64,000 nucleotides of DNA from Ulota crispa (Eukaryota > Streptophyta > Bryopsida > Orthotrichales > Orthotrichaceae), in NCBI GenBank assembly GCA_963920765.1, contig OY987244.1, forward strand, positions 16,844,358 through 16,908,357, written 5' to 3'. How positions within the stretch are numbered: the first letter of the stretch is position 1; each line of letters begins with the position of its first letter. Made by a program: the position numbers and the translations under genes. Below, one piece after another: positions 4,716-63,495 of this stretch. The notes under the pieces were generated by a model that saw only the letters and a list, made by a program, of their open reading frames with translations, did no database searches and was not told the DNA's origin.

Positions 4716-4717
4716 TA

Positions 4718-4960
4718 CCATATTCGGTAAATTGGGAAAAACGGAGGTACCATTTTGTACTCCACCTTAATCTTGCATATAGTAAATGTAGGCATAGCTA
4801 TATCTCAAAGTTGAAAATTATTTGAAATTCTTGTAGGCAATCACTGAGACTTCAATATTGTTCAAAAAAATGCATACATTTTTTTTTTTAATATGTCAAA
4901 TTTTATTTAAAGACGTGAAAGTCCCATAATGTACTCTTTTTCCAATTTACCTAATATGGT
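4718..4960. mobile_element. 250-bp MITE family, copy 1
   Basis: The inverted ends are CCATATTCGGTAAATTGGG and CCAATTTACCTAATATGG, with the shared inner block GTACTCCACCTTAA. Homologous copies are at 12366-12613 and 59781-60030. This copy abuts the Stowaway-like element, with only the TA of that element between them. Confidence 0.7.
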
Positions 4961-12365: not shown

Positions 12366-12613
12366 CCATATTAGGTAAATTGGATAAAATAGTACATTCT
12401 GGGATTTTTACTATTTCTTTGTTATGTACAATTTAGCATATTACAAAAAAAACAAACCTGCACTTTCTTGTACAACAGTGAAGTCTCAATGATTGCCTCC
12501 AAGAATTTCAAACGATTACACCTTTGAGCTATAGCTATGGCTACATTTACTATATGTAAGATTAAGGTGGAGTACAAAGTGGTCCCTCTGTTTTCTCAAT
12601 TTACCTAATATGG
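12366..12613. mobile_element. 250-bp MITE family, copy 2
   Basis: CCATATTAGGTAAATTGG at the left and CCTAATATGG at the right. The inner block GTGGAGTACAAA is inverted relative to copy 1. The flanks TAACA and TGTTA are mirror images, so the inverted repeat may extend further or the target may be palindromic. Confidence 0.7.
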
Positions 12614-12820
12614 TGTTAATTACAATTTTTGCGCTATTAAAATATTACTAAATAACAACTTCAAAAGCTTATTTTGGTTTCACATTGGGAATTGTGTACA
12701 AATTTTTATTTTAGTTTCTCCTAGTATGTAGTATGTATGGCTATGGAGCAAGAAAGCTTCTCTTGCTCTTGCTTCAATGTGAACAATTTTGTACTAATGA
12801 GTTATTTGGAAGCTGCTTAA

Positions 12821-13739: not shown

Positions 13740-14313
13740 TTACCATTGTGGTACTATTAGTATATTACTAGAGATTGACTTCAGCAATTTAGAATGGTCT
13801 TATACTAAGATTTGTGTACAAGTGCTTATTTCATTTTTATTTTTTCTATTAGCAAGCTTGAAAAATATTATATTTATACATAACAATGTCAAGTAGTCCT
13901 TTTAGTATTAAATTGATTTTAAAAGAGATGTAAGGCATGTTAACTCTACAGTACACAGCCAAAAATCCGTCTTGCAAAATCCCTTGTATGATTACATTTT
14001 TGAATTTATCCAATTGTACCAAAAAACTATTAACCAATCAACTTTTCAAGGGCAGTTAGTGTTATTTTTTAATGATTTTCATTTTTGTTTTAAATAAGTA
14101 GGTAGATTTATTAAAAAAAGCTAATTTCCTTGTTTTTCTGATTTTCTCAAAATTTCAAAAATGACCTTAATGCCATACTTAACTACATTTGGATTATTTG
14201 CGGAATTTGGGACTAGACCAAGATTATAAAGGTTGGGTGATCTCTATAAAGTATGCAAGAAGAAGGTGCTAAGTGTAGAAACATGCAAGAAAGGTCAAGA
14301 GTAGTGGTTAATG
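13740..14313. other. No gene seen; left border zone of palindrome domain
   Basis: AT-rich with no gene. The sequence character changes near 14,200-14,300, just before the first copy of the GGATC-centred palindrome. Confidence 0.3.
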
Positions 14314-16583
14314 TCACTGGGGATCTCTCGATATACTGTGCTCATGTACAATATGATATTACTTGGTGTAGATGATTTCATATAGTCACACATTTACTTC
14401 AGAGATACAAGAGAAATGGGGAATTTCTGATGTATAACACCGGATTGATAATCAGAAAACATATCAATGATAAGAGAACGTTATTGATATCTTAGTTGGC
14501 GAGGGTCGGGAGTAGACTAGAATGACAGAAGTGTGAGTCCTTTGCCTAGATTTAATTGTGATTTGATACAATGAAAAATCAGCAGTAGACAAACCAAGAA
14601 ATAAGAGAGAAGGGACATGCAATCATCTGGTGAAGTGAGAAATATCGACCATGGGGTGGCTTGAATCCGATAAAGTAGAAATCAATGACGCTGTAGACTA
14701 AGAACTACTAACGACTGCATGATCCAAACATCCACCTGGAGTCGCCAAACGATTGAACTGTACAATATGTATCAAGGGATCCCCCGACAACAGTAATACA
14801 TTAGTGGACACATCAAGATGTAGGGGTAGATTATACCCTGCTAAGATATAGAGAATGGCAATCGTAACAATCACCCATCTGGGGATCCCCCAATAAAGTG
14901 AGTCCAGCAATAGAACAAAACCAAATTAAGACTACACAGTGACTATCATCCAATAGATGAAAGCAAAATCAGTTGGCAGATTGAAGGCAATGGCAAATCA
15001 AGACATAGGAATACATAGAGTATAACATGCATAGCCTCAAAAAAATGTCCAAACTTTGTTCATATGCATAGAATGACCACATTTGTGTCTATTGGAATAA
15101 AATAGGAATTGCACAGTAAAAATACAGAACTAAGTGCATGTAGCTTCTGTAATATGTAAAAACCTTGGTTGACCACGTAATTGACGATAATTCAGAGGAT
15201 CAACGGCAAGCATCTTCAATCTCCTATTTATAAATATTCTACGTGTGACAGGATTTTGTAGGAGCAATGTCACAATTTCTGAAGGGGAGGGCCTAAACTT
15301 GCTCCAGTGATAACCAACAGATCCTACTAAAAATTGAAACTGTGAGACAACATCCTGGGAAGAATACGTCAAAGAAGCTCTGCAAGTGTGTCAGGATTCA
15401 TTGCCGACCATAACCCACAACAAGTATGGGTAACTTAAAACCGAACTAGTCGGACAAAGCCCAGATCTACTTCAATAGGCTGAGGAAGATCCGCAATGCC
15501 ACTCGGAACTCATAGAGCACCATGTAGTACAAATACCATTGCCTCTTGCAAAATGAAACCTCACAAAAGAGTCAAAGATGAAGAATGCAAGATCTCACAA
15601 GAAAGTCGAGTATGACAATTGAAGGAACAGGCCATCATCGAGGGATCCCTGGATAAATAGAGAACAACAAATATCGCAGAAATAAAACATACTATCATTG
15701 CATCTCATTTACAAGGACAAACTAATTAAATCACAACTCAATAGAGATGCGTGAGAAATTCATCTGACTCTAATGAACAACACAATAAAATGGAAACATA
15801 AAAAAGAAAATGCATGTACACAACTAATTTACAATACAAACATTGAACTGTACTATCTAAGTAAGGTAAGCAACAAATTATTCCAAATTATACAATTTGA
15901 AAGTTATAAGAGTAATCAGCATATTGAGTGATAAATGGAGAAAGTCCTAACGATGCTGCAGCTTTCACACACAGGCTAGAATACAACCATGTGAATGAAA
16001 CAAGTAGGCGTGAAAGAATCACAAAATTGAAAGAAAGTACAACCAGTAGGAGTACATCTCCAGACCGGTGCAACACAAATACGTTATAAATATGTGACAT
16101 GGAATTTGTGAAGTGATCAAAAAAGACAAGAATATTCTCAATGGATTGATTACAATGTCAACAAGAAATCATACAAAACACACTTAGGCCATCTTGAATG
16201 TTCAAAAATTCTAGAGGGCATTAGAGACTCAGAGTACCATCAAGGGATCCCCCAATGGTTGGAGAGATGAATCAACAAAAACAGCAGCAGTTCTATGGCA
16301 TTGCACAAAATAGAAACATGAAAACAAATAATGTAAAAATCAACAATTCAAGACAAAAATAGGAAAAGTTAATTAAGATATTATCAACAGATTGCTTTAG
16401 AATATTGTCATTATAGATGTTTGACTTTGAAGTCATGAATTGAATAAAAGGGAATAGTTCATTCCCAAATGTACATTTTCAATATGAACAAAAACTCATA
16501 CTATATACACTAAAGCCTCCTCAAACGCTGCGGTATCGTACCCGGCAATAGAAGAAACATACCATCATTGGGGATCCCCGGAT
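14314..16583. repeat. Dispersed GGGGATCCCC palindromes, left group
   Basis: Copies with centres near 14323, 14779, 14885, 15645, 16247 and 16574 follow the consensus CATC(A/G)GGGGATCCCC(C/G)GATG, each with a few substitutions. The sequence between copies is not repeated. Weak open frames (for example 15130-15372, minus) could be exon remnants, but I recognise no domain. Confidence 0.75.
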
Positions 16584-16626
16584 GTTTACATTAGATGGCA
16601 GTGTCCTATTGTGGTGGTAGTCCCTA

Positions 16627-19172
16627 TCAAATGCACTCCACTAATTCCGGATCCACATCTAACCATCTTTGGCACCGTGGTAGTGGATTCTCCTTGACAA
16701 AGGTAACAACATGTTGATTTGATCTAAAAAGATCGTCAAGCCACGGAATCAACAGATTGATGAGAAAAGTGTCGTTTGGATTCCCAGCCCATGAAATAGG
16801 GTGGATTGCGCAGTATATATTGTTTAGAAGATTTTTATATAGATTGTCATCAACTAGAAGAATATCCTCTAGTGTTGGGTTGTGCCCGCACACCCTCGCG
16901 TACGTCCTTAAGTCTTTAAGAAAATATGGTTTATCTGGATTACAATGACTTCGGTAAGAGGACTCTATGCAAGAATCCTGCATTAAGGTAGCAACGTCAA
17001 GATCACCAAATAAGGCGTCATACGTCAAATCCGCAATCATAACCTGCACGCTAGCTTGAGAAGCACAACTTGAGGACCCAAGTGTTGCTTTGGTGTACAA
17101 CCAATTCGAAAATTGTCTAGCTCCTAGTCCCCAGATACAATGGGGTTTTCCATGGATTCTATATTTGTGAATCAAAACTCCGTTCAGATCTAGAACCACA
17201 GTATACCGTCAAAGTGGTACCTCATTCAACTGCACCAGTTGTAATGGAATATCCACTAGTTAATCTGCAAAGGACAATGACGCCAGGAAGTTAGAGTCAA
17301 AGAAACCAAATTGGAAAGCCAAAGGGACGATGCCAATGTCAAAGTAGGGTGTCATTCTCAGCACCTGGGACTTTGTCATCTCTTACACCCTTTCCCTCAC
17401 AATCCTCAGGATCCCCTCTCGTTGGTGAAGGACTACCCAACTCATCCTCTTTGTTTAACTCCACCCCCTAACAAATAACAAAGTCAAAAGATGAATTGTA
17501 AGTAAATTGCTGACGCAACATGACGGCTTAAATTCTTTTGGAATGAATTGACAGAGAAGAGAGCCTATGAGGAAGAATAAAACTAAAAAAAAAATCAAGT
17601 TCAATGCTTCTAAGTCAGATACAGACCTCTTCAGTATGAACTTTTGCTAGTGTGACAATATTATAATTGGCCACACTTGAACCACCCAGCAAAGGAGCAG
17701 TTGACAGATTAAGGGGCGGTGCATTTGTCATGGTCACAGTCGGCCCTTCAATCAGTGTGACGATATTGACTTCAAAATACAATACCGCTTGCCCAGCAGT
17801 TGTAGGTGGAGGACTAAGAGGGCGGATGTCTTTAAAAGTGTCCAAACAAACCTCTTGAGTTATGAGTTCCATAGGACTGGATTGGGATTCATCCATGTGA
17901 ATAACTACAGCATCAAGCGAGGGCTTGCGGAGTATCCGGGGATCCCCTGATGCATTGACGCTTGCATCTGCATCCTCGGGAGCCCCACCTAAAGTCGACA
18001 AAGAGACAGTCACAGGAGGAGTGGGGGAATGTGAAGGTGGCTGCTGTAATTGGACTCGCGCAGGCTGTGGATGGTCGGAAACTACATGTAGAGAGAGGGC
18101 GGTGATAGTCGCTTGGATTGAGTCGATTGGGGGTGGGGTTGGAATTATTGGGATTGACCTACTTGCTGGAGGAGCAGCCTGCCTGGTTACAAGTGACCGA
18201 CAACATACGCGTTCAGCTCTCTTGGACGCATCCGATTTCTTTGCGTCATCGTCAGTCTCGGAAGTCCGATCCGCCCTAGTCTCCAATTGTTTCTTTGAAG
18301 CAATTCCCTTTGCGCATTGAGCCAATGGCATCGGACCCTTTTTGCATTGGATTGGCCTCTTTGATGAACTCCACATCCTTTTTGTAGGCGCAGACTTCTT
18401 CAAAGCCTTGGCACCGCTCCGCTCCGGACTTTTTCTGGACCTCCAAGTTGGGAATTTGGCCGAGGGGCCAGCAACATTCTTTTCCTTCAATTGACTGGAA
18501 GCCCAAGTATGCTGCCGTGATGTTACATGAAGAACATCTTGCACACACAATGAACAGTGATGAACATCATACGCATCAATTAGGTTGCTAATTAGAGTGA
18601 AAGTGCATCAAGAGATCCCTGGATATCAGTTACCTATGCTCTCGGCATTGTTAAGCATCCGGGGATCCCCCAACAAGAGTCATGTAAGGATCATTCCATA
18701 TCCTGAACTACTGGCTTTAGATATGAAGAGTTCAAACCTGGTCAACATGTTGTAAGTGATGATCGTCCTCGCTGGATTCAGAGGAGCTGGACAATTTCCG
18801 CGATCGTCGATCGACCGAGGGCTCCCTAGTCCTACGCTGATCCGACAGACTTGGGCTCCCTTGACGCCTACGCGAAGGAGGAGATTTTGGAGGCGATTTG
18901 TAAAACTGATTTGAGAGGCCAAAAATTAGGATCCAAATTGAGTTTTGTGATTTAGACAATTGTTGGCATCGGGGGTTCCCTAATAAGAGAGAGAAATTCA
19001 TTGCGAGGGTAGGCACATTGGGAGATCCCCCGATGGTTAGGTAAGGGTACAAACCTCTTCAATATCAAGCCGACGCTGCAAGGGTTCGCGAGAGTGGGAT
19101 GAGTGCTTTGATGGCAACCGTGTGGGGCTCCTCACGCTTCTCTGGGATCAAGGAGAATCAGGCTGGGCTTCC
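16627..19172 (-). CDS. FCP1/NIF-like phosphatase-domain gene, probably decayed
   Basis: The last exon (about 17199-16627) encodes a domain of the FCP1/NLI-interacting-factor type (HAD fold). It shows VVLDLNGVLI, where the usual second Asp of DxDx(T/V) is Asn, then KPYFLKDLR, then LLVDDNLYKNLL, and finally the SWAGNPNDTFL stretch typical of plant members. These phosphatases normally dephosphorylate Ser or Thr residues. The upstream exons are low complexity: about 18550-17631 is rich in Pro, Ser and Thr, about 18900-18735 is Arg/Ser-rich (RRRQGSPSLSDQRR), and about 19172-19054 continues the Arg/Ser character. Exon ends fit GT donors (for example after 17631 and 18735). Two or more in-frame interruptions suggest a decaying copy. 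GGATC palindromes lie in the introns and one lies in coding sequence at 17934-17953. Boundaries are approximate. Confidence 0.5.
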
Positions 19173-19307
19173 TGAAAGTCAATCACAGAGTTAGAATGAG
19201 AAGGATCTCTGTTGCGGTTATTATTGACACCGATAGCAATCAATAAATCTCCCAATATGAGCAACCAAATGATATTTGCAACGCAGCCATCGGGGATCCC
19301 CGAATGG
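17934..19307. repeat. Dispersed GGGGATCCCC palindromes in and around the FCP1-like gene
   Basis: Centres lie near 17942, 18616, 18665, 18976, 19025 and 19296. Two pairs (18616/18665 and 18976/19025) are each 49 bases apart and sit in introns. The copy at 17942 is in exon sequence and would encode the peptide ASGDPRI. Confidence 0.75.
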
Positions 19308-20267
19308 GCACCTCAAAATTCATACTTGGACATTGATGAGCTGCCTCTGGGCCGGATCTTGAGAACCGACCATGTGGTCTAATGCTTCCTCCACTAGTAG
19401 AAAATTCAGCTCAAAATCAACAGAATTTCAACCAAAAACTGTTGATTTTTTCTGTGAATTTGGTCAAGTTGATTTAGGTACTTTTCTGTTGATTTTCTGT
19501 TGATTATTTACAGTTTTCTGTTAATTTGTTGTTGATTTCTATTACGTGTTTTATGTTGTTCAATTCTATTTCTTTTCATTTTTAAAATTTTTTTTCGTAG
19601 AATTTGTTATTATTTTACAAAAATGTGAACTTTTTAGGGGGATGGGCAGCTGCCCGAACTCTCGGGCAGCTGCCAATAGCGGGGTTTGAACCCTCCACCT
19701 CTCCTCTCACACTCCACAACCTTAGCACATTTTCAAAACCACTAGAGAATGTGCAAATGCACATGCATACATTAATATCTTGATTCTATTTGTACATTAA
19801 ATGTTCATGTCTTTAGTAATCCAATAGATTTTGGAGGCTATTTCCGCCCATTAAAAGATTTTTTTTCAAAAAACTTAGAATTAAGAAAAGTTGGTAGATG
19901 TATTTTACTTTCACCTCCATCAGTTTTTTTTGGATTTCAATCTTTTTATCAAAAGTTATGAGCTAAAACCAGAGAAGGTGTTTAGAAATTTTAAATAAAT
20001 TGTTTATTTCCATCCTTTTGATTTTGTTTATAAATTTTTTTTGGAATTCACAAATCTCATAAGGATTGTTGCAGGCAAAGGTTGGATTCATTAATAAACA
20101 TTATTTAGTGCTAGTTTTTTTGTAAAAAGAACCTTATTTTGTTAAAATAGCCTCCATAGTTTGATAGCTTCAAATAACATGAAGTTGTGAAAAGTTATGA
20201 ATTTAAATCCTTGCAATTATAAAATCAAAATTCTATTGACTTTTGAATAGTTTTGGATATTTTGTAA

Positions 20268-20700
20268 GGGCATTAATATGTGAACCACACCCTTTGAACT
20301 ACTGTACCACACCCTTTGAACTACTGTATCACACCCTTGGAGTAAATTTTAGATTTCTACCATCAAAAATTTGAGTTTGAGAATTTTGAATTCAAATTTG
20401 GACTTAGGGACCATGGTATTATCTAGGACCATAAAAAAAATTGCAATTCAACAACACCCAATGAAAAAGCTTATCTTTTTTTACAAACAAAAGTAAAATT
20501 AACAATTTTCTCCCTAACTAAACTTTTTCATTGGGTGTTGTTGAATTGCAACTTTTTTTATGGTTCTAGACAATACCATGGTCTCTAAGTCCAAATCTGA
20601 ATTCAAATTTTCAAATTTAGCTTCTTGATGGTAGAAATTTAAAATTTACCTCATGGTGTGGTATAGTAATTGGAAGAGTGTGGTACACATATCAATTCCC
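20268..20700. mobile_element. Foldback MITE of 433 bp, nested in the CACTA-like element
   Basis: Long inverted arms run inward from GGGCATTAATATGTG and GGGAATTGATATGTG, and both contain ACCACAC-rich blocks and the string CAATACCATGGTC or its equivalent. A truncated relative of one arm occurs at about 37933-38060, beside the GAGCATCTCC element. Confidence 0.7.
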
Positions 20701-21319
20701 ATCTTTTAAAGCTTATAAAAATATTTTATAAGATTGTTTTTTTTTAATTCATTTGATTAGTAATAGAAGGAAAATTACTAAAAATACCCTTTAAGTCTTT
20801 CAAAATATCAAGTTTACGCCGAAAATATGTGAAACATAAAAAATAGTCCTTATTTTTTGTAGGAATATCAATTATACTCCTATTATTTTAGAAAATTAAT
20901 AAAATAACTCTTCTATTTTGAAATGTTAAATATATCCTTGTGTTATTTGAAATGTAAATATCACCTTTGGTTTCTTGTAAGAATTTGCATTAAATTATAC
21001 ACTTGGTTATCATGTAACACAAAAATATTTTTGGTACTTTTAATCTTTAAGGGACATTTATGATTTCTTCAAAGAATTGAGGAGCATCTTTTATATTTAT
21101 TTGTAAAGAAATTTTGGTATTTAAAACAACAAAGTGTTGTACTTTTTGTATAAAATTTTGTTGAATTAGTGAAGTTGTGTCCAAAAGTATCTAGATCAAC
21201 AAAAAACTGTTGAGTTTTTTGTTATTATGGTCATGTGTTTACTTGACTTTAAAGGCTGCTAAGTTTAAATCTTACCAAATTGTGAAAAGTAAAGAAAATA
21301 AAATCAGTCAATGTACACT

Positions 21320-21895
21320 CAAACTTCTAAAAGATTCTTTTTTTTTGAAAACTTCTTTTATTTTTTAAAACTTCAGAAAAATTTAATGATGTCCAAAAAG
21401 GTTTTAGAAAGATTTCAAAAACAAACCTAAACTATTGTGATAGTTTTTTTGAAAGAATTTTGATGATTTACAAAAAGATTCCTAAAGGACTCTAATTCAA
21501 TCTAAGAGATCTATTTCTATAAGTATTTTGAAGTACTTTAACAAATTCCATAAAGATTTTAAAAAGATTCTCAAAGATTCCAAAAAGGTTCTTGAAAATT
21601 CTTAGAGAGTTTCAAAGATTTTTTGAATTTCAAAAAAGATTTTCAAAAGATTCTCAAAGATTCTCAATTGTTCTCAAACATTCTCAAAGATTCCAAAATA
21701 CTTGAAAAGATTTCGAAAGATATCCAAAGATTCATGAAGATTCCTAAAAGATTCTCAAAGATTCTAAAATCTCAAAAGGATTCTTAAATATTCTTAAAAA
21801 TCATGAAAAGATTTTCAATGATTCCCAAAAGATTCTTGAAAATTCTTAAAGATTCACAAAAAATTCCCAAAAGATCTTCAAAAGATTCCAAAATT
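21320..21895. repeat. Degenerate AAAGATTC satellite-like stretch
   Basis: About 570 bases are built from loose repeats of AAAGATTCTC, AAAGATTCCA and TTCTTGAAAA words. It is inside the CACTA-like element and non-coding. Confidence 0.7.
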
Positions 21896-22344
21896 TCTGT
21901 TGATTTAGATAATGGTGTCCAAATCAACAGAATGTATTTAGTTTTTTACAGAATTCTGTTAAATTAGTCAATTAGCGTGGGCAAGTGCCCAAATCAACAA
22001 GAAACTGTTGGTTTACTGTTGTTTTGGAAGAAGTTTTCTACTAGTGAAAACACAGCGTTCCCAATTAGTGTATCACATTGTTCTAGACCACTTCAACCTT
22101 CACAAATTTCCTCATTTCTTCACCAATATTACCATGTTTCATGATTTTTGTAGCGACACATACTACAACCCATGCACTCTGTCACGACGTTCTTCTACAA
22201 AACGACATGACCAACCATTGAAGACTATTAATGTGCTACAACAAGCTTAACTACAGCTCAACATTGCTGAAGACGTCAAAACAGATTCATTGCTCAAAAT
22301 GATAGAGAGAGTTCCGATTCCTTACTAGAGTTTAGAGCCCGAGC

Positions 22345-22746
22345 TTGGTGATGCTGCAGCCGTCCAAATCAGAGTGTGCATTCACAAAAAATGTGACCCC
22401 GCTAACAAACGCCTACGTTGCTGCAACAAGTACTCCACCCACAATCTACGCGAAGCAATATTTCACTAATCAAGCAAGGTCGATTTGTAAAACCGCAAGC
22501 AACAATTCTAATTGCGCTCCACTGACAAGGGCCTATGGTGCTGCAACAATAAAACACCCCAACAATCTAAATGATGCAATACTCTACAAATCAAGGGTGG
22601 TTGATAATTCAAATCTGCAAGCAGCAACTACAATCATGCAAATCCAAAAGCAACAACTACAATTGCACAAGGATGCAAGCAACACGGACGTCCAGAGCAA
22701 AATTACAATGTTTGTAATGCATCGGGGGGAAATGAGGGAGACGTAG
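22345..22746 (+). CDS. Open frame with an internal 120-base duplication, unrecognised
   Basis: The frame of 133 codons has two tandem diverged units of about 120 bases (22395-22514 and 22515-22634), encoding TPLTNAYVAATS and APLTRAYGAATI. Reading frame is kept across both units, which hints at past coding. I recognise no domain, and no splice context or partner exon is evident. It lies directly right of the CACTA-like insertion and might be an exon of the interrupted region. Confidence 0.2.
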   Translation: MVMLQPSKSECAFTKNVTPLTNAYVAATSTPPTIYAKQYFTNQARSICKTASNNSNCAPLTRAYGAATIKHPNNLNDAILYKSRVVDNSNLQAATTIMQIQKQQLQLHKDASNTDVQSKITMFVMHRGEMRET

Positions 22747-22869
22747 TTCCCATCCAACGGGAACGTGCCCGCGTTCCCACTTTGGGGACGCGCTCATGAT
22801 GAAGCCGCCACTAGAAAAAGCCATTGTCCTTGTCGGATCTGAGATTTTTGGGTGCCGAAGCACTCAATT

Positions 22870-24150
22870 CGGCATCATGAAGATTAGAGCTAACCTATTA
22901 ATGATGAAAGTGAATTGCTGGATTAATCCCACCAACAAGCAACCTTAAACTTCTAGTCATCCATATCCTTTTAAAATTGTCATACCTGTTTTCAAAGCTA
23001 AATATGCTAGTTCCAACAGTGTTCAAACATTTAGTGTATATTGTTAATGCTAAATGATAAATCATTGCCACAAATTTCATTTTAGTTCAAGTAAGGATGT
23101 TCTTGTTCACAGTTATTATTTTCATCTGCAATGAATTAAAGTATTTTAAACTTGCATTAATAGTCCTTATCAATTTTTTGTATATTTTAGAGCTCACGGC
23201 AGCATCATTGATTTGCTTGTGAGTATTTTAACTGCTCACATTTCATTATACTTGAACAAGGTCCAATATAATATTTTTCTTATCAAATTTTACTGAGATA
23301 CCTTGTTTATCCACAAATTCAATTATAGTATAAGTTCACGATTTTCATTGCTGCAAGACACAATCATTAGCATTATTTGAAATTGTTATTCTATTCATTT
23401 GAAGAAGAATTTGAATTACTCTTACTCCTTAAAGATGTATGTTGATATTACATTATATTGTTTAGAATATCTTTCACATTCTTGTAGTCTGTGTGTATTT
23501 TATTGGTGCCACATACATTTATGTCAATTCTTTATTGTATTTCCTTTAGTACATTCATATCTTCTAATTCAAATAATAAATGGAAGAACTTTATGATTTA
23601 GATATTTTTCTCATTCTTCAAGCGTTTTTGCTACTACAAAGAGGTGTGACCCTACAGTATGGCTTCTTTAATCTCTCTTATATTTCAAAAGGCATGAAGA
23701 CAAGAATCAAACCCTTTCATAAATAAACTATAATTACATAACACTAATCCAATAGTAAACTTTATTGTTATAATTTAATATTCAAAATGAAAATAAACCA
23801 ACAAAGTCCTAAATAAAGAAGCACTTGTGACCTATCCAAGATATGTGAATATGGAAGAGTTAATGGACTTTCTTGCCCTCAATTCATAGATGGGTCATAA
23901 AAGTATATCCTTGAACTCAAGAGGATGTTAGAGGCCCACTTTAAGATGATCCCCTTAAAGGAGGACCCCATTACCTCATCCTTATGTTTGTGGTTTAGGT
24001 AAACTACTGGGTAATATTCCAATTGCATACCATTGGAATGATATTATTATCACATAATGATTGTACCGCAAGGCTCATTGTGTAAATGTTGTGGATTTGG
24101 TTGAAATAATCCAAGTGAAGACCCCCTAAACCCAAAACCCTTTGCGTTTT
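22870..24150. other. No gene seen
   Basis: AT-rich, with no convincing exon, RNA gene, palindrome or element end. The short open frame at 23399-23596 is hydrophobic low-complexity translation only. Confidence 0.35.
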
Positions 24151-24710
24151 ACAAGAACAAAGAAGTTAATCCAAAATGAGTAGCAATCAAGGTTGGAATG
24201 GAAAGAAAATTGAACCACATGGTCATGATACTATAAGGGGCATTGGGGAATTTTTGTGGAATTAATTCACCCAATCTCATTGGGCCCCCCTTATACCCTA
24301 TCCCTTTTTAGTTACCATGGACTAAGGGGTTATTTCCAAAATTATAGCAAAAAGAGTCAAAATGGGGTGAAAACTGAACCACCTGGTCAGGGTGTTGTAA
24401 AGGGCTATGTATAATTCTTGTGGAACTAAGTGACCCAATATCATTGGGCTCCCTTTATACCCTATCCGTTTTTAGTTTCCATGAACTAACGGGTTAACTC
24501 TCAATGATAAGCAACAAAGGTCAGTATTAAATGAAAATTTAACCACTTGGACAAGGTAGCGTAAGGGGGTATGGGGAATTGTTGTGGAATTAATTGAGCC
24601 AATCTCATTGGACTCCCCTTACATCCTAAACCCTTCAAAATTTTCATGAATTAAGGGATTACTTCCAAATGAATAGCAATGATTGTTGGAATGGAATGAC
24701 AATTTCTTCA
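24150..24710. repeat. Tandem array of about 163-bp units
   Basis: Three diverged units start near 24178, 24345 and 24508, with part units on both sides. Each carries GAACCAC(A/C)TGGTCA-like, GTGGAATTAATT and CTCCCTTATACCCTA-like blocks in order. Divergence is substantial, so the array is old. Confidence 0.75.
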
Positions 24711-25930
24711 TATAGTGAGCGGATTAGGATCCTAGGGGGTTTAGTGACTAGTATGTATCTGAGGTCGTAGTTGTGGTTTGTGTGAAAGTATTCTGTACTA
24801 TTAATATGACAGATGTAAAAGACAAGGTGAGGTGAAATTTATACTTATTTATGCTTTGTTCCATTATAAAATTACAAGAACGGCCAGCCACTCACTCTAC
24901 CTTGCGGTACCGTGAACAATGTACTACTCTACATCATCATTCCTCTTTGTAGACTTTCCCACAACGAATATGAATTTTATATTCCAATGGCGGGACCAAT
25001 TTTCAAATTCAAAACAGCTCTCAAGAATTGGAAGGCGGGATTCAAGCCCCGCAGCGACAGCCATGATCCTGCTCCCGCATGGCATCACTGCCATTTTCAC
25101 TCTTGCTCCTAGTCCGAGTTCCGTGCTGATTTGATGTAGCAAGCTCTTGTTTCATTCATTTCATAACGTGTATGAATTGCGGCAGAGTTCCTGAAGTTAG
25201 AGATCAAGATTGTTAGTAGATTTTATGCCTGATGAATATAGTCTTGATTTCTTGACACAACAACAAGGCGCGGCGAGAAGATGAATAGTAATTTCTAAAT
25301 TACGGTGTGGATCGGCGGTGAGTGAGGGAGTGCGTCGCATGTCATCATTTAAGAATCTGCTACAGGTATGAATGCGCGCTTTTCCTGTTGTATTATTCAA
25401 TCCTCATTATAAATCTGCCGTTCACCACTCTGCAATGGATTCAAAAGTGCAATACTCGTCTATGTAGTTGGAGCATGCAGTGAAATTTTCATTTGCACGG
25501 ACAATGATTCAGTCGCTCAATTTCCCGGCCATCCGATTGTGGATTGTAGCAATTTCTATGAGTGCTCTATTTTATCATGTGATGGTCAATTCCAATGAGT
25601 TGTATCTTTAGATTCAACCATGTTTCTGACTTCTGTGATAAAAATTGAAGTGTTTACTTATCTTATAACTAGACCTACAGTGAATCAGTCAATCAGCAAG
25701 TAGATATTTGTGTTATAGCAAAAATGAATAATAACAAGAACCATTGTATACGGACAATGGAATGTGCGAGACTATACTTTATCAAAAATCATGATTAGGT
25801 GATGCCATACAGTTCTTACCTGGATGGCAGTGTAGTGGCCGATATACTTTGATTATCTTCAGATGAAGGCCGTACAGTCAACTCTTGCATATTTTCTTCT
25901 GATGAGTGTATTTCAGTATGACCTATCTAT
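24711..25930. other. No clear gene; possible exon remnants
   Basis: Less AT-rich patches at 25010-25130 and 25290-25400 have short open frames on both strands without recognisable domains. A GCGGGATTCAAGCCCCGC block at 25036 resembles a tRNA-type box B but has no matching box A or cloverleaf. Confidence 0.3.
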
Positions 25931-26598
25931 ATCGAGGGATCCCCGGATAAGTAGAGCGTTTATATCTAGAATGATCATTGTCTGACTAAAGCCGATGCAC
26001 GTAGATGATTCAACGGGGGATCCCCGGATAGATAATTGTCCATCAGTAGTCATGGGTAAAAAGCATCGGGGGATCCTCAATAGATTTGGAATATGCCTTG
26101 TTGAACAATTATAGTAAGGTTTGAATTTTTTGATTATCATCGAGGGATCCCCGGATAGAATGCGTCATTCTTGTTTATTTAGAGTGTAGCATCTGGGGAT
26201 CCCCGACGCATTTTGTATATACATCTCGAAATGGTCACACTAGTGTTCATAAACTCGGACTATTGTCCCAAGATCCCTGGATAGATGTGGGCCCTCTTCA
26301 ATATTGGTATTGACTGCATCCGGGGATCCCCTGATTGATAAGGACATATTTCAATCGTCGGAAGTCTCTCTACCTTTAGAAACATTTATGGGAGGTAGTT
26401 TGATGCTCACTGAATCAATTTCTATTGGGGGACCTCTAGATAGCAATTTTTTGAGTCATATTTTGGTAGTCTCAATGACATTCTTGTTTTTTTACTGTTG
26501 TTGGCTTTAATATATTTAATGAAGTCACTATGCTTTGAATGCTTGCCAGACCTAATGCTAACCAGAATTGACTACTCTCATTGGGGGATCCTTGGATA
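25931..26598. repeat. Dense array of GGGGATCCCC palindromes
   Basis: Nine copies have centres near 25939, 26020, 26073, 26147, 26199, 26273, 26326, 26432 and 26588. Spacings are 81, 53, 74, 52, 74, 53, 106 and 156. The spacer sequences are unrelated, so this is not a simple tandem repeat. Several copies are near-perfect palindromes of 16-20 bases. Confidence 0.85.
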
Positions 26599-26929
26599 CT
26601 TTGAATGCAGTTTTTGGTTTAGTCCAGGCCGTAGTTCCCTAATGAGTTCACATGGAATGCTGCATCGGTATTTGGTATTAGTTGAGTTCCTAATAATAAT
26701 TATGTAGTTGTATACATATTGTTGGTAGAGAACTGCTAATTTGTACTGAGATTAAGATATATGCTCATTTTGTAATCTAGTTTTGGTAGCTGACACTGGC
26801 CAGAAAGTATTGGGAGCAAATTCTTGCTTCTTTTGCATCTGGGATAGAGTATACGATTTGCTTAATTTAGTCGAACGTCCAGATTATGGTCTTGCCTAAC
26901 CTTTATAATATGATCTCAGATTCTCATTC

Positions 26930-27860
26930 GTGTCAAGAATAATGGATGCTTTCAACGAATGCATCGTCAACAACTTTACCCTCTCTAGGATTCATCCGCC
27001 TTCATTTGAAAGATCTCAAAATTCCACTCAATACTCAGAAGCCATCTGTAATGGCAATGCAGTCAAGCTTTTTGTTACAGGAGTTGGAGAAATTAGAGAT
27101 GCTGTTGTTGTGGAGGCTCACCCTCAAGGTCAATGGTTTGGTGTCATCATCCCTTTGCAGCCATGGATCTATATTCTATTGCGGCCGTTGTCTATCATTG
27201 CGAGCGCTTGTGCAATGTCTGTTGACCCATGTCAAAGGGATCTGAAGTTGCTAGTGGATGTCATTGACATGTTCATTTTGTGGAGGGTTTCTTGTGTGGT
27301 GAAGTCATTAGGAGATTCCTAACGGATTTGTCTTTATTCATTTATCCAGATAAGTGGCTTGGTCTTGAAGTCCACTACAAGGATATTGACCGTTAGCTTC
27401 TTTCTTCCGGACAAATAAATTGCTGCCCGCCGGACAATCATTTTCAAGGTGGTACCTTGGATGACGAAGATGTAGGGGTTACTGTCCTTGACATGTTCGT
27501 TGGCAACAAAGACCTCATTATGACACACTCTTAATGGCCATTATCATTGTGCTGGTTTCTAGATGGTCACTCCTTGACTAAAACCCTTGAGCATTTCTCA
27601 GCCTTCTATGTTATCCAAGACCCCCGAGCATATCTTGGTGCTAGGCTGAAAGCGTCTTATCAATTCGTTGTTCAAAAACCTAGTCTGCATAACAAAGATT
27701 AGCAATACGTTTCTAAAACTCAAGATGCTGAAATTCAAAAGGTTAGCTTATAGAAATGCTGCGACAGTTGCTGCTGTCAGTTTTTTCCACAAGACCTGAC
27801 TTTGATGATTTGACAAAAGTTCTACTTGAAGCCATTTGAGGACCGTTGAGAATATGGAAT
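26930..27860 (+). pseudogene. Decayed coding-like region, unrecognised
   Basis: Sequence of higher GC than its neighbours with several open stretches (26930-27322, and pieces on to about 27,860) broken by stops. Readable peptides include DKWLGLEVHYKDID and QDPRAYLGARLKASYQFVV. I recognise no family. It lies between the dense palindrome array and the DUF7869-like gene, on the same strand as the latter, and may be a third gene of the palindrome domain. Confidence 0.3.
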
Positions 27861-27899
27861 TGCGGTGTCCTGATGGAGATATCTCCATCATGTAGATAT

Positions 27900-28205
27900 T
27901 CGTTATATATTTATGTTTGTGTTGATTTCAATAAATCAACAGTTGAGGCAAAAGAGGTGGTCGTGGTGAGGACCACGGTTTGGTGACAGCGCAGCGGCCA
28001 TAGATTCCAGTGCGCTGCGCCGTCTTGTCACATGCACAACTCAGGAAGGTAGGTAGCGGGTTGGCTGGGCTAATTTCCTGCCTCACTAGCTGCCAAGCCG
28101 TGAGCCGCCATCACTGCTCGACGAGTTCGATGAGATTCAAACCCGGACCGGCGGGCGACTAGAGACGACCGCTTTTCCAGTCAACCAAATTCACGACTTG
28201 GCGAC
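27900..28205 (-). mobile_element. Possible tRNA-derived SINE
   Basis: On the minus strand the head (about 28,195 downward) reads TTGGTTGACTGGAAAAGCGG, resembling a tRNA box A. About 35 bases later comes GGGTTTGAATCTC, a good box B. A GC-rich body of about 230 bases follows with a block of self-complementary GTGGTCCTCACCACGACCAC. No poly-A tail or target duplication was confirmed. Confidence 0.4.
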
Positions 28206-28599
28206 TGAAGACAAGCGTTTAACGCTATTATATGCTCGCAAGGGTACGTGGCCATTTTACGATGGTATTTATTTTGTAATTTAATTATTTTCATATGTTT
28301 ATCTAGATGTTTTGGAGGCTCATATATTTTGCCTTTGTTTAAATAAAAATACTAAGGGTTTAGAAGTCAATAGGAAAGGTGTGAAAGGAAAAAGGATTTG
28401 GCATCTATGGTGGGGTTAAGATAGGGAGGGCATGGGCTGATGTGCTCCACCTCTCTACCTTAGATAGGGTCGAAATTATGGAATAAAGATTCCTTAGTTG
28501 TTGGAAGTTAGTGTATGAGTGTTGGTGGGAAGAAGGGGAAAAATCCCAAAACTTTGATGTGAGATTTTTTTCTGTATATACATGATTTTGAATTGAAAT

Positions 28600-29410
28600 T
28601 TAAGGAGATTGTTCCTTGTGTGATTACCTTTCCAAAATGAATTTGCAAGTTTGATTTGGAATTGTGATGCAAAAGTTATGAGTGTTTGAATTTTGGAGTC
28701 AAAAAGCCAAACTATGAAGAAAGGCTGAGACTTCGACAAGCCATAACTTATGATTTGTATATCATTTTGCAACAAGATTTAGAGGAAGTGTTTATCTTAG
28801 TATTGGCTTTTTAGAAAGTCTTTAAACTTGAGGTTTGAAGCTTAGACGAGAAAGTTATAGAAGTGTGAAGGTTTGGAAGTGGCTGCCCTTTTGTTAGGAG
28901 AAAGCCGAGACTTTGAAGAGCTACAACTTTTGGATAGTATGAGATTTTTTCTTCAGATTTTTAGAAGTGATAGTTTGTTGTCATAGTTTTTTGAATTGTT
29001 TTTAATCATTTCATTTGAAGTTTTATTGAAGAAGTTATAGTGGGTAGAAGTTGCGGATTTGGGTGCTCTCTAAAAAATTGAGACCCACACTTTGATTGAC
29101 TAGAGCTTTCGGACAGAGTTTTGTTTTGAAGTGAAAATTTTACAGATTGTAGCCAGTGATATCATCTTTCTAAATTGATATCACGTTTCTATGAGTAATG
29201 TATAGATCAAAAGTTATAGAGGTTTATAGAGGCAATGTTTAGTTTGTAAGGAAGAAGAAGAGCCTCTACTTTGAACCCACATAACTTTTGGACAGTATCT
29301 TATTGAGTTGAAATTTGGAGGAGTATTAGAGGGTTAGAAGAGCTTTTCAAATTGCTATTATACTTAGCATTTGAATCTTTGAGCCATCTATGGCACTAGA
29401 TAAAAGGTCG
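28600..29410. repeat. Diverged tandem array with 180-bp period
   Basis: Two landmark words recur at a steady interval. AAGTTAT(A/G)(G/A) occurs near 28671, 28850, 29031 and 29211. An ACTT(T/A)-TGGA(C/T)AG-like word occurs near 28744, 28925, 29106 and 29284. The period is 178-181 bases over four or more units, each about 60-70% alike by eye. Non-coding. Confidence 0.75.
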
Positions 29411-30018
29411 CTGCTTTTCTAGGACTTGTTATTTGTGATTTTCCCCATTGTTTTTATTAAAACATAAAGACTTGAAGACATGAAGACTTGAAGATCTGAA
29501 GATATGAAGATTTCAAGAGGAATGTTTTGGGTTTATTTTTTATGTATGTGTGGGATGTGGCTTTGTTATTCTTAGCCGGTTTTGGAGGCTCGTTTGTCAA
29601 TTCATTTCCATTCTATTTTGTAAACCTTGTTGCGGGCAGTTTGGGTTAAACCAAACTTAACCCCATTTATTGTTGTGGTGACGAAGTGGGATTGATCATC
29701 CACATGGTCGAGACTTGCTCTGTTCTCACGATCTGGAGTTTTGACCAGCAGATCGTAAATTTGATTTTAGGATCCCGTCATACGGACGGCAGCTCGTGTC
29801 TGCTGTCCCGATCTACCCGTCCCGTATCCAGTGGGCTCTTATCCCTACCTTGACCTTTATACCTTTAGAGCCAGCCACAAGATATGTCAACGGAAGACTG
29901 AAGACTGAAGATTTGAAGAGAAGATCAAGATTAAAGACGATTTTAATCAGCAACGCACGATCGCAGCAAGACACCCTGCGTGTTCCCAAGGCGCACTCCT
30001 CTCAACCCAACAGCGGCT
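29411..30018. other. Leader region of the DUF7869-like gene
   Basis: Contains two patches of GAAGACTTGAAGAT-like short tandem repeats (29465-29515 and 29893-29935) and otherwise unique sequence of moderate GC. It probably includes the promoter or 5' exon of the gene at 30019, but no core promoter is certain. Confidence 0.3.
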
Positions 30019-32488
30019 AGAGGCCAGATTCATAAGCTAGACAGAATCCGCAAGCACAAGTTTATCACACTTGATGGATTTGAGGTTTGCATGACTGCAT
30101 GGCAATTGATCCACGAAATTCCTAAATCCACTTATCACAATTACATTGACCAATACAAAGCAGGAATAATTACTAGAATTCACGAAAACAAGGGCATTAA
30201 GTGTCCTAGGATTTGGAATGTTCAGATCAAGGGAACTATGCAAGCTATTATTGATGACAACGCCGATCAGATGTCATATCAAATGCGCTCTATTGGCAAT
30301 AGTAGAATGGACACTCTCAAGTTTCTCCTGGCCGAAAATAATTGGAAATGTGTCCGGGCAAAGGCAAATGAGGTAGGTCTCTTTATCCATTTTTGCGGAG
30401 ATTTTCCTCATTGGGGGATCCCCAAATGATTAGTTCTAGTCTTCTATTTTGTGATTCAAGGCAGGTCACCATGTCTTTTGCTGTCTTTTCAGTCCTTTGG
30501 TTTGCTTTCTTGTTGATAGGGCCATTTCTGATTTCATTTTGTGGTGATTGTGCAATTGAACAAAGACTATGGAGTTCCTCCGGTGAGCCAATCTACCATA
30601 AGTAGAATCAAGAAGGAACATTTTAACAATGTGGCTATCAAACCTGTCGGAAGCACTTTTGCTAAGTGTACTATCTGCGATCAACTTCAGCAGTTCCTAC
30701 TAAAAATACCAAAAGGGAGTCTTGAGTATGTTGAGTTCATGAAGCAACGAACAAAACATCTGAACCACCAATTTCTTGCCGTTGTCTGTATATTTCATGG
30801 CGTAACAAGTCCAAGAGGAACCTGCGGGAATTCTTTGTGTCATTCACGACAAAATGGATACAACCAAAACAGCTATTCCTAGGATGCGAGTCACAACGAA
30901 AGGAATGTCAAGACTTAAGCAATTGCCAATGAGCATTATTGGAATGGTAGCTCATGGCCACGTAGATGGAGCATATGCTCATTATGCTCCATCTTGTTGG
31001 CCAGGTGACTCCAATTTCACCGTATTGTTGCTAGCTAGATTACTTTGTCAATTAGAAGGACCCCCAATATGTGAAACCAGGGACCTCTTTCCATATGCTC
31101 CGGCAAATCCAATTTTTGAGGCACTTCTCAGAGGGAAATCTAGGTGTATGGAGAGTTTGAAATTAACTAAACTAGGAGCTTGTGTCAGATCCGCACCATT
31201 GTCTTGAAATCTTTATCTTCAGCTTGACAACTCCACAAAAGATAACCAAAACAAGTGTTTGATGGCATTTTTATCACTTCTCATTGCTTGTGGTGTCTTT
31301 AAGGAGATTCGAGTTGGATTCTTGCTAGTTGGGCACACTCATGAAGACATCAACGCTTACTTCAGGCATTTGTCTAAAGCCTTGAAGAGCAGCAATACAT
31401 TTGTAGTTGCTGATTTGATGCAGTCCTTTATGCAGTCGCAAGAATTTTCTTTCATGCCTGAGATAATACAAGAGGTTGCGGACTTCAAGTCTTTTATAAA
31501 AGATTATCCATGTAGTGGCTCTGCCAGGCTAATTGGGTTGGGTGATATGCACCTCTTCCGGTTCTACATTGATAATGAGGGGGTGCCAATAATGAAGTAC
31601 AAGAAATCTGCTGTTGATACTAATTGGCTTCTTTCAAATAAACCATCTACACGCCTTTGGAAGGAAGATAGTAGTAGCCGACCAATGCTTCCTCCAAGCT
31701 GCCCTAAGCCAATTCCCTTCAAGCCTATGTGGGGAAGCAAAGTTCTAAGTGCTATAGGAAACCAAGATAAGGCAAGGGAAATGGCTCAAAAAGCTACCTT
31801 GAACAAGAGTTTTATTTTAGTTGGACTGCAGAAGTACATTGGGTCCTGGAAGTATGGGAGTACAAAGTGCACGGGATATGCAACTGCAATTGCTCCTTAT
31901 GTTGAATATTGGAGTCGCGTGCTCTATGAGCTACAGCAGCCTCTACCTGACTGTCCATCCAAATTGGTGGAAGGCTTCTGACCTCATCACGACTAGAGAC
32001 TAGCTCAATACAATGTGTCTCGTCTGGGGGCGGTGTGTAACCCCAACAATGATATTCCAGAAGCTGAAGATGCTGAGCCTTATTGCGGCCCTGCTAATGA
32101 AGCGCCAAGGGAGTGGTTTAACCCTTGGCTCAATGTTCGACCTGGCTCTTGGGTTTTACTGAGACCTAAGGACCCTGTCGTTTGTGCAGTCTAGTTAGGA
32201 CAAGCGCTCTCCTTTGTTTGCAGAGTGGAATGAGATGAGAATAACGGAAAGTTTCTTCTTCAGTACTGGCAACCAAATAATTCCGCAACAAACCTAGAAA
32301 TTAAGTACCGTAACTATTGGCACGGGAAATGGGTGGTTGAGAACAGTGCCCCAACTTGGGTTGACGCTACTTGTGTTGTATATTCGACTTGGTCAAAGCT
32401 TGTGGATCCAAGAACCAGAGTGATTCCTAAGAAGAGCCGGGAAGCTGCATTAGTGAATCTGAACGTGTCCAATGAGGTCGACCCATGA
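30019..32488 (+). pseudogene. DUF7869-type gene with DDE-like acidic motifs, decayed
   Basis: The first exon (to a GT donor after 30372) encodes KLDRIRKHKFITLDGFEVCM and a basic, helix-rich region. A second block (about 30545-30770) carries a Cys pair, FAKCTICDQL. The core follows: CVIHDKMDTTKT near 30,845, LQLDNSTKDNQNKC near 31,225, and VGFLLVGHTHEDINAYF near 31,320. These are the signatures of the plant and algal DUF7869 family as I know it. The spacing D...D...HxHxD looks like an RNase H-fold (DDE-like) acidic triad; that is inference. The C-terminal part (to 32488) has PGSWVLLRPKD and NYWHGKWVV, a BAH-like or family-specific tail. About four interruptions make it non-functional as it stands. 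A palindrome lies in its intron at 30409. Confidence 0.6.
30409..30429. repeat. GGGGATCCCC palindrome in the intron of the DUF7869-like gene
   Basis: CATTGGGGGATCCCCAAATG is palindromic around 30418 and lies just after the donor at 30373. It is the only copy inside the gene body and lies in non-coding sequence. Confidence 0.75.
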
Positions 32489-32517
32489 TCCCAAACCTCT
32501 TCTTTGAGCTCATCTTT

Positions 32518-32675
32518 CATCGGAGATCCCCAATCCTTCCTTAGTTCTTGGGTCTTGTGTCTCATTTCATTGGGAGATCTCCCGATGATCATCAGCAACG
32601 TGCTTTCTCGGTTATAATTTTCATCAAGGGATCTCTCGATGTTCTCCTAGTTTTCTACTATCGGGATCCTGGGCT
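32518..32675. repeat. GGATC palindromes directly 3' of the DUF7869-like gene
   Basis: Four copies have centres near 32526, 32577, 32631 and 32666. The second, CATTGGGAGATCTCCCGATG, and the third, CATCAAGGGATCTCTCGATG, keep the outer CAT/ATG arms. They begin 30 bases after the stop codon and could fold as hairpins in the 3' end of the transcript. Confidence 0.75.
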
Positions 32676-33608
32676 AGTACTCAATTTTCTTTGATTTGTA
32701 TATTGATTCAAATATTTGGATTCCATTGCTCATCATGTAAGGGCTTCCTTATTTTTTATTCAAATTGTGATATTGGATATAGTGTTGTTGGTTGTCAATG
32801 ATTTGCCATTTTTTAAATTTGTAGCTTATATCATTTCTTTATTTTCATGCTCGGCTGCTCTTTTGCTAATGAAAATATATTTTTTCTTTTTCATAAATAT
32901 CCAACTTTTGTGAACATCATTTTTGTCATGCTACTTCACTCCTGCTTGATTGTGCATGTTAATGTGGTTTGTTATTTTGTGTTTCTTTTTGGATTGGTTG
33001 CATGTTTATTTCATACTCGCAATTGTATTTTGTTTCTTCACTCTTTGGTATGGCAATGTATTTCAACATGATTATGCAATACTTTGCTCAATCTTTGCGG
33101 AGTGTACTTGGTGGATGTGTTCCTCAGTAACCACTATGGCTCACCAATGACATTGGGAGATAAGCTAACGGACTTTATTGTTTGATATTGCTTGAACATT
33201 GAAGTGTTCTATCATATGTAGTGTTATAATAAGTAGACAAATTTCATTTTTAGATGCTGTAAATGCGAGCACCATCATATGACTAACTCTGCCACTTTGC
33301 TAGTTCACTGTAAAATATGATTTGTATTTTGGTTGCAATTTATTGCCTTTGCCCTCGTACCCAGAATCGTCACTGCAAGCATGTGTTCATTTTGTTTCTC
33401 TAGGTACACATGTATCTTCATCAAGAACATCTAACGTATTTATGATACGCTGGTGCTAAGTCTCTCTAGGCTTTGACATTTAGTGCGTTGCCGTTGGTTG
33501 CCTCCACCCTAAGCATGCATACCGTGATGGCCGAAATTTTTTGGCCTCATCCAACCGTCAATTTCAGTAGGTCTTGTTGTTTACTCAGGGAGATATACTA
33601 TGGTTTTT

Positions 33609-34060
33609 CATCAAGGGATCTCCCGATACATATGACAATGATTTTGTGCATGGCAATGAATTGCTTTACCAACATTAGACTTTGCACTATACATTGGGGG
33701 ATCCCTTGATGGAGTTGTATAAGTTTCATCCACATCCATGGAACTATTTTCAAGAAATTCTGACAATGATGATTCGTGCAACTATGGATTGCCTTATTGA
33801 CCTTAGATTTTGCACATCAGGGGATACCCTGATGGAGTTGTATAAATTGCATTGTCGTCCAAGGAACTATTTACAAGATATTCTGGCAATGATGATTTGC
33901 ACAGGACGGGATTGCTTTACTGACATTAGATTTTGCACTAGACATTGGAGGATCCCCACATATAGTCGAATAAATTTCATCCACATCCAAGGATCTATTA
34001 ACATGACATTTCGGTTTGCACTGGTCATTGGAAGCTTTTCCGATCCCTTGTATTAGCGTA
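33609..34060. repeat. Three tandem units of about 126 bp, each with one palindrome
   Basis: The units start near 33640, 33765 and 33890 and share TTAGA(C/T)TTTGCAC before the palindrome and GGAGTTGTATAA-like and CATCCA-GGAACTATT-like blocks after it. Palindrome centres are at 33618, 33701, 33825 and 33952. Sequence to the right of about 34,060 returns to plain AT-rich DNA, so this looks like the right edge of the palindrome domain. Confidence 0.75.
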
Positions 34061-34061
34061 C

Positions 34062-34584
34062 ATTCTGGTTATTATGATTTCTGGACTTTGGAAAGTTTAG
34101 AAGTAGTTAAATATGGCATCTTAGATCTTTAAACCATTTTGGAAATTTAACAAAAAATTCTCAAATAAAAATAATATAAAAATAGTATAAAATTGGTTCT
34201 TTGTTAAATGATGAAATTCATGTAAACTCCAATAAATAAATCTTATACTACCTCAAAATATCAATTGAGAGTTATGCATATTCTTAAGTTTATCTTTATT
34301 TTTCTAATTTTTGGAAAATCAATAAACAAAAAAATCTAATGCTACAAAAATAAAAAAGCTCAAAATGGGTATGTAGTGAAGGTAGCAAATATTGTGATCA
34401 AACTCACAACAATCTTCAATATAAGTATTGTTTTATTGAGTTAAATTCATTGTAATTATGCACAAGGATTGTAAAATTACCATGAGTACATTTCTTTTAT
34501 ATCTAAAATGAATTTTTAAATTTAATCACTGAAATTATTTGTTAAATTTAGAAAATCCAAAATGGTAAATTTAGTATACTAGTA
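34062..34584. other. No gene seen
   Basis: Very AT-rich intergenic DNA with no repeat ends, palindromes or coding potential noticed. Confidence 0.4.

Positions 34585-54760: not shown

Positions 54761-63495
<8,735 letters not shown>

Follow-up and report, generated by a model that had tools for sequence, protein, structure and literature searches.

Why are some thirty copies of one 20-bp palindrome crowded into a single 20-kb domain of a moss genome? The question is raised by a stretch of 64,000 nucleotides of Ulota crispa (assembly GCA_963920765.1, contig OY987244.1, positions 16,844,358 to 16,908,357), which is referred to here as the window. The original prediction, made from the letters of this window, placed about 30 copies at 14.3-34.0 kb, most with one to five substitutions and none before or after, and offered three roles for them: binding sites for an element-encoded protein, hairpins in RNA, or tiny self-inserting palindromes. 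The palindrome domain is a single DNA transposon that carries a gene of the DUF7869 family. The palindromes are probably (roughly 0.7) double-stranded DNA recognition sites of this transposon family, bound by a dimeric protein that the element itself would encode.

Palindromes of the window lie in one transposon

The window has 27 sites within 7 mismatches of the palindrome CATCGGGGGATCCCCCGATG, all of them at 14314-33962; the remaining 44 kb has no such site. One site departs from CATCGGGGGATCCCCCGATG at 2 positions, ten at 3, five at 4, four at 5, four at 6, and three at 7. First-order Markov simulations of the window (n = 3) gave 0, 4, and 1 sites at the same threshold. At 3 mismatches or fewer, 11 sites are found in the window and 0 in 100 shuffles. 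Allowing no more than 1 mismatch, the core GGGGATCCCC is found 19 times (comparison mean, 0.54). The predicted number and location of the copies are thus borne out, far above chance, and the range of substitutions was fairly given (20 of the 27 sites have 5 mismatches or fewer). That none lie before or after is right for the CATCGGGGGATCCCCCGATG motif but not for palindromes of another type, one of which is carried by a miniature inverted-repeat transposable element (MITE) at 59777-60034.

The domain is one DUF7869 DNA transposon of 19.95 kb (14170-34119, Table 1), because homology to its relatives stops at common ends that have terminal inverted repeats (TIRs) and a matching 4-bp target-site duplication (TSD). 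Homology to relatives on C2 and C1 stops at the identical base, 34119, and the left limit is at about 14170. The C2 relative is flanked by AAGA on both sides (judged by eye), so that TSDs are found in both of the giant elements tested. The ends of the window element and of the C2 relative are inverted repeats of the form ATGCCATA(C/T)TTAACTAC. With at most 2 mismatches, the TIR consensus ATGCCATATTTAACTACTT has 254 + 277 matches in the genome, and a control has 0 + 2.

Two recognisable genes are found near opposite ends of this transposon. An open reading frame (ORF) with an FCP1/NIF-like phosphatase fold lies some 2.5 kb in from the left end, and on the right the DUF7869 domain stops about 2.5 kb short of the terminus. 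The latter domain matches PF25273 at 31208-31981 (E = 1.7e-31; 109.8 bits against a Pfam cut-off of 26). When 20 ORFs (10 from the window and 10 from relatives) were scanned with Pfam, only NIF and DUF7869 exceeded the cut-offs. The DUF7869 protein is the putative transposase; conserved D, DN, and GHTHED stretches in its alignment are at most compatible with a DDD/E enzyme. The approximate coding sequence (4557 of 19950 bp, with ORF limits set by hand) contains 1 of the 27 palindromes. The outermost palindromes lie 144 bp inside the left terminus and 157 bp inside the right terminus. Information is nearly nil directly beyond the 20 bp of the palindrome, as judged from 151 sites.

The window family across the genome

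In the whole genome (275 Mb), 193 sites match the palindrome with at most 3 mismatches, and the reversed control has 0. Of the 193, the 46 that have no more than 2 mismatches were taken as the best, and 44 of these have a match to DUF7869 or to the FCP1-like protein within 25 kb, where 3.75 would be expected; the same is true of 21 of 23 palindrome clusters. This coincidence of clusters with FCP1-like or DUF7869-like genes elsewhere was what the original prediction had named as support. The test used 150 of the 157 DUF7869 positions and 38 of the 56 matches to the FCP1-like protein, the omitted ones being second fragments and weak matches; the weakest of the 56 are perhaps host genes.

Ten inward-facing pairs of exact TIRs less than 50 kb apart were read from the list of genome TIR matches. 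Nine of them (three on C1, one on C2, two on C4, one on C7, and two on C8) hold a DUF7869 gene and an FCP1-like gene near opposite ends, with the nearer gene edges 1.8-2.7 kb from those ends. The tenth pair, C6:245355-294768, does not fit this two-gene arrangement. No TIR was found near the outer palindromes of the C6 element, and an exact TIR lies at C6:294750-294768.

The position of the outer palindromes is also conserved. At 15 of 16 sampled giant-element termini, a palindrome with at most 8 mismatches lies 142-157 bp inside the end, and the single miss, the right end on C2, has its copy with a 1-bp gap. Ten further ends of this TIR family were selected by the positions of TIR and DUF7869, and every one has palindromes with at most 4 mismatches (L064 among them was known beforehand to have one). 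Within the giant family, 45 of 167 gaps between neighbouring palindromes are 49-54 bp long (3.1 at random), and two adjacent pairs in the middle group of the window are spaced at 53 and 52 bp. The mean identity of spacers is 0.305 between sources, 0.284 when shuffled, and 0.40 within a source; spacers are therefore mostly unrelated.

Palindromes of other types at further DUF7869 loci

Palindromes of four other types are found at other DUF7869 loci. With at most 1 mismatch, TTTTAGTTGATCAACTAAAA has 18 sites in the genome, seven at C2:7.40-7.45 Mb and seven at C5:0.54-0.57 Mb, and both clusters contain a DUF7869 match. At the same threshold ATGTACATGATCATGTACAT has six sites, five of them at C7:11.65-11.67 Mb, where the C7 element, over 31.3 kb around DUF7869, has 23 sites within 3 mismatches. 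ATTATGTTGATCAACATAAT is found at one locus only (C3:5.395 Mb), and so is the ATTAAGGTG-type palindrome (C7:19.218 Mb, weak sites). Three of these four types have a GATC centre, as the window type does. Within the TIR family of the window there is also a GTGGG variant, CATCGTGGGATCCCACGATG, in which both arms are altered (51 sites).

Across a tree built from 32 DUF7869 sequences, the palindrome types are coherent. One clade (support 0.987) holds both the window type and its variant, the latter in a nested position (0.971), and the remaining four types share another clade (0.996).

A MITE family carrying one palindrome

When the other palindromes were searched genome-wide, hundreds of dispersed close variants were found. 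Twenty dispersed loci were fetched, all from C1 and the first listed for the other palindrome types, and all 20 have one MITE backbone, the remaining 19 matching the first at 75-87%. The MITE is about 257 bp long (240-302 bp where both ends were measured); its ends are the inverted repeats AACACCATATTNGTTAAATTGGG, and it holds a single palindrome in a set position. The palindrome is exactly 53 bp from the MITE end in 15 of the 19 measurable copies and 47, 52, 54, or 59 bp from it in the others. A matching 4-bp TSD is found in 16 of 17 MITEs, and a flank-anchored search gave 461 exact-flank matches (control 0). The family is thus one of MITEs: short, with TIRs and a TSD, high in copy number, and non-coding as judged from its short length.

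Dispersed single palindromes might suggest tiny palindromes that insert themselves. This is very improbable, for all 20 of those fetched lie in the same MITE, and when the 27 window sites were aligned to the C2 element no clean gain or loss of 20 bp was seen. The original prediction had proposed such a comparison of empty and filled sites. The sole long insertion or deletion at aligned sites is a 51-bp unit of palindrome plus spacer. Note that the alignment covered the window outside 19393-24679 and that C2 sites in the unaligned middle are outside the comparison.

The palindrome type varies among MITE subfamilies on a constant backbone. Of 52 sequences displayed from the 461 matches, 50 have a full-length palindrome-like 20-mer (35 distinct) and make up the MITE palindrome set; one non-palindromic sequence and one with a 1-bp deletion were omitted. 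The arms covary among the 35 distinct palindromes, with 292 paired positions against 256.6 expected and a maximum of 275 in 1000 shuffles. The commonest form of those listed, the asymmetric TTTTAGTTGATCCCCTAAAA (7 of 50), combines a TTGATC half-site with a GGGGATC half-site and is a cross between two palindrome types.

One arm of an imperfect palindrome can be rewritten from the other by template switching. Symmetry could in that way arise by mutation, with elements spreading any palindrome they hold, and both arms could be altered together, as between MITE subfamilies. We consider this improbable: the frequent form TTTTAGTTGATCCCCTAAAA is asymmetric, window-family sites vary arm by arm, and neither the shared position of the palindrome nor its match to DUF7869 clades is explained.

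Arm variation and the case for a protein

Structures formed in RNA or in single-stranded DNA, whether hairpins or cruciforms, would suit the perfect dyads of the consensus sequences and the covariation of arms between MITE subfamilies. The arms of the C7 family also covary weakly (277 against 267 expected; 10 of 500 shuffles as high), which speaks for hairpins and counts against a protein site. In the window family covariation is absent: 1048 positions are paired where 1052 would be expected, and 340 of 500 shuffles reach that count. It is absent too in the GTGGG variant (356 against 354), and an Rfam search found no family in 13900-34400. With two of three site sets lacking covariation and the third showing it weakly, such structures have little probability. 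Because the arms vary independently in the window family and in the GTGGG variant, a dimeric protein is preferred.

The palindromes would be bound by a dimeric protein with dyad symmetry, which may be the DUF7869 transposase itself or a partner that the element encodes in another gene, and a bound palindrome would identify the element as one of the protein's own family. Recognition would then assemble a transposition complex, regulate or de-silence the element, or both. We infer the protein binding, the element-encoded origin of the protein, and the family specificity of the site. A family mark is proposed from three features of the palindrome: it is rare in coding sequence, in giant elements and MITEs it lies close to the ends, and it varies with DUF7869 lineage. 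Among the three roles first suggested, binding sites for an element protein are the best supported, and RNA hairpins and self-inserting palindromes are disfavoured. The TIR- and TSD-bounded transposon, the palindromes peculiar to other loci, and the one-palindrome MITEs go beyond what had been predicted.

A further step is possible, and we put it forward tentatively: the palindrome may be an exchangeable identity tag, so that the MITE backbone and a giant lineage could switch the DUF7869 family that mobilises them by exchanging nothing but the palindrome 53 bp from the end. If so, a tag and its reader that evolve together would split one genome into transposon families that are blind to each other. 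Different palindromes on one MITE backbone come close to a natural swap experiment, and the related sites form a natural series for testing how partners are exchanged between a transposon and the non-autonomous elements that parasitise it. The uncharacterised DUF7869 gains a definite function, that of core gene in transposons bounded by TIRs and 4-bp duplications, and the DUF7869 family is probably tied to an abundant MITE family.

Several points weigh against protein sites as family marks. In three further groups of the DUF7869 tree, no palindrome with more than 2 occurrences was found within the 3.4-kb loci. Two of the other types are single-locus (L034 and L031), and L031 is weakly supported. 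Of 12 control pieces taken from the window and put through the same palindrome scan, one also gave a cluster, by way of a tandem repeat. The shuffle controls ignore the relatedness of the sequences, and the sampled elements are related, so their gaps and ends are not independent. Part of the 53-bp spacing is tandem duplication (L008 and L041), and a periodicity of 10.5 bp vanishes when gaps of 48-55 bp are removed (R 0.08); general helical phasing of all sites is unsupported for this reason. Palindromes diverge more than flanks between window and C2 copies (17.3% against 11.4%), although at G/C positions the two are about equal (26% and 23%); because the divergence of palindromes is not below that of flanks, there is no sign of constraint at sites in decaying copies. 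No recognisable DNA-binding domain was found in the 20 ORFs given to Pfam. Finally, one end of the giant C7 element is apparently the MITE terminal repeat with one mismatch, and 75 bp there are MITE-like. Because the far end and TSD of this element were not found, the end may be a MITE fragment adjoining the element, which weakens its link to that repeat.

Comparison with known systems

The palindromes can be compared with sites in three known groups of transposons. CACTA (En/Spm) elements are likewise large, with a transposase and a DNA-binding protein (putative here) and with short motifs repeated near the ends (PMC2613891). The motifs serve transposition as cis signals and diverge as families do, and non-autonomous copies that retain these signals can be mobilised in trans (PMC2613891). 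Unlike CACTA, the TIR here, ATGCCATATTTAACTACTT, begins with ATGCC, the TSD is 4 bp (CTTA, AAGA) and not 3 bp, no Tnp2 domain is found in the 20 ORFs, and 20-bp palindromes occur throughout the element, with MITEs retaining only one.

The VANDAL/VANC system is defined by a Mutator-like element (MULE) transposase plus a VANC protein. Neither a VANC-like nor a MULE protein is found in the 20 ORFs, and the element here differs further in having TIRs with a 4-bp TSD. The likeness lies in family-specific short motifs in the non-coding DNA of the element. In the portion of PMC5735166 that deals with them, VANC motifs are found in introns, in intergenic DNA, and in terminal non-coding DNA, often in tandem, and differ between families; those given there, YAGTATTAY and AGTTGTCC/AC, are not palindromic. 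By analogy, the best reading is that the palindromes would work like CACTA/TNPA or VANDAL/VANC sites, as far as the relevant sections of these papers describe them (PMC2613891, PMC5735166, PMC10398659).

An anti-silencing role of the VANC type is an alternative. An element protein would bind the motifs all through the non-coding DNA and strip repressive marks from the element, and transposition would need the TIRs only. Sites are spread across the whole 20 kb and rare in coding sequence. They have grown in part by tandem duplication and differ between related families, as the VANDAL/VANC sections of PMC5735166 and PMC10398659 describe. Most departures from the consensus are G>A or C>T changes, the kind that methylated copies would be expected to show. 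Non-coding MITEs, however, retain one palindrome, which in most copies stands at exactly 53 bp from the end, and giant elements retain one near each end. Because of this geometry in MITEs and at giant-element ends, end recognition fits better, and anti-silencing as the whole explanation is doubtful. It overlaps with the protein-site reading, which allows for de-silencing.

Sola elements have 4-bp TSDs and variable TIRs, are in some cases longer than 15 kb, and are present in a moss (PMC10741241). A 4-bp TSD with TIRs is found here in both giant elements and MITEs, and the window element would suit Sola by TSD and size. As far as the Sola sections of PMC10741241 go, internal palindromes are not mentioned. 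A literature search gave no paper naming DUF7869 and no title or abstract describing such a system, which is not proof of absence.

Genes and other features of the window

Table 1. Coordinates of features in the window
Feature	Position	Strand	Remarks
DUF7869 DNA transposon, 19.95 kb	14170..34119		ends common with relatives; TIRs and 4-bp TSD; all 27 palindromes inside
TSD CTTA, left copy	14166..14169		flanks transposon
TSD CTTA, right copy	34120..34123		flanks transposon
Left TIR ATGCCATACTTAACTACAT, 19 bp	14170..14188	+	
Right TIR, 19 bp	34101..34119	-	exact consensus
Palindromes, left group (12)	14314..19306		14314, 14770, 14876, 15636, 16238, 16565, 17933, 18606, 18656, 18967, 19016, 19287
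Palindromes, middle group (8)	25930..26598		25930, 26011, 26064, 26138, 26190, 26317, 26423, 26579
Lone palindrome	30409..30428		end of first ORF of DUF7869 gene; probable intron
Palindromes, right group (6)	32568..33962		32568, 32622, 33609, 33692, 33815, 33943
FCP1/NIF-like phosphatase-fold ORF	16627..17208	-	PF03031, E 9.4e-11
330-aa (amino acid) ORF	17615..18607	-	upstream of FCP1-like ORF; no Pfam match; palindrome 17933 inside
137-aa ORF	26909..27322	+	no Pfam match; homologous pieces in C2 and C6 elements
DUF7869 gene ORFs (putative transposase)	30013..32488	+	PF25273; in-frame TGA 31205-31207
Stretch unalignable to C2 element	19393..22046		boundaries approximate; 4.6-kb C2 counterpart has further palindromes
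2.2-kb insertion	27855..30012		boundaries approximate; not in C2 element
MITE	59777..60034	-	TIR AATGCCATATTTGTTAAATTGGG; TSD TATG; palindrome ATTAAGGTGACCACCTTAAT at 59962-59981, 53 bp from end
Second MITE	12362..12617		similar TIR AACACCATATTAGGTAAATTG; ends and TSD AATT by eye; palindrome decayed or absent

The nucleophile motif of phosphatases is DxDxT. The FCP1-like ORF has the motif DLNG, and DLN is also found in the copies of the C6 (L048) and C2 elements. Because DLN replaces the DxD nucleophile motif, this family may lack phosphatase activity. An NCBIfam search added nothing beyond a phosphatase match below the cut-off. The 330-aa ORF has homologous pieces in the C2 element. For the DUF7869 protein of the window, the predicted structure was uninformative (mean predicted local distance difference test score, 33.9), and a search of solved structures gave only two hits, at chance level. 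No DUF7869 relatives were found in viral contigs or phage records.

The window copy of the transposon is decayed, with an in-frame TGA in the DUF7869 frame, the 2.2-kb insertion, and the stretch that cannot be aligned to the C2 element. Within the insertion, 29189-30007 has 91% identity to L017. A tandem repeat of about 164 bp lies in the middle of the transposon (24197-24628) and is far longer in the C2 copy, near 6733.4-6735.2 kb.

In the second MITE of the window (12362-12617), the arms are perfect over 26 nucleotides, flanking bases included, and near offset 53 a decayed palindrome is seen by eye, of which the half-site ATGTACAA is seemingly left. Pieces of 4717-4963 match MITE ends in both orientations and are probably another MITE copy. 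Elsewhere in the genome, L004 (C5:2709256-2712275) has a AACACCATATTTAACTA end with closely spaced GGGGATCCCC-type palindromes and may be a MITE that belongs to the same family as the window element. On contig C11 (6.3 Mb), DUF7869 matches are about 11 times denser than on the ten larger contigs (4.9 against 0.45 per Mb), and C11 may be a sex or heterochromatic chromosome.

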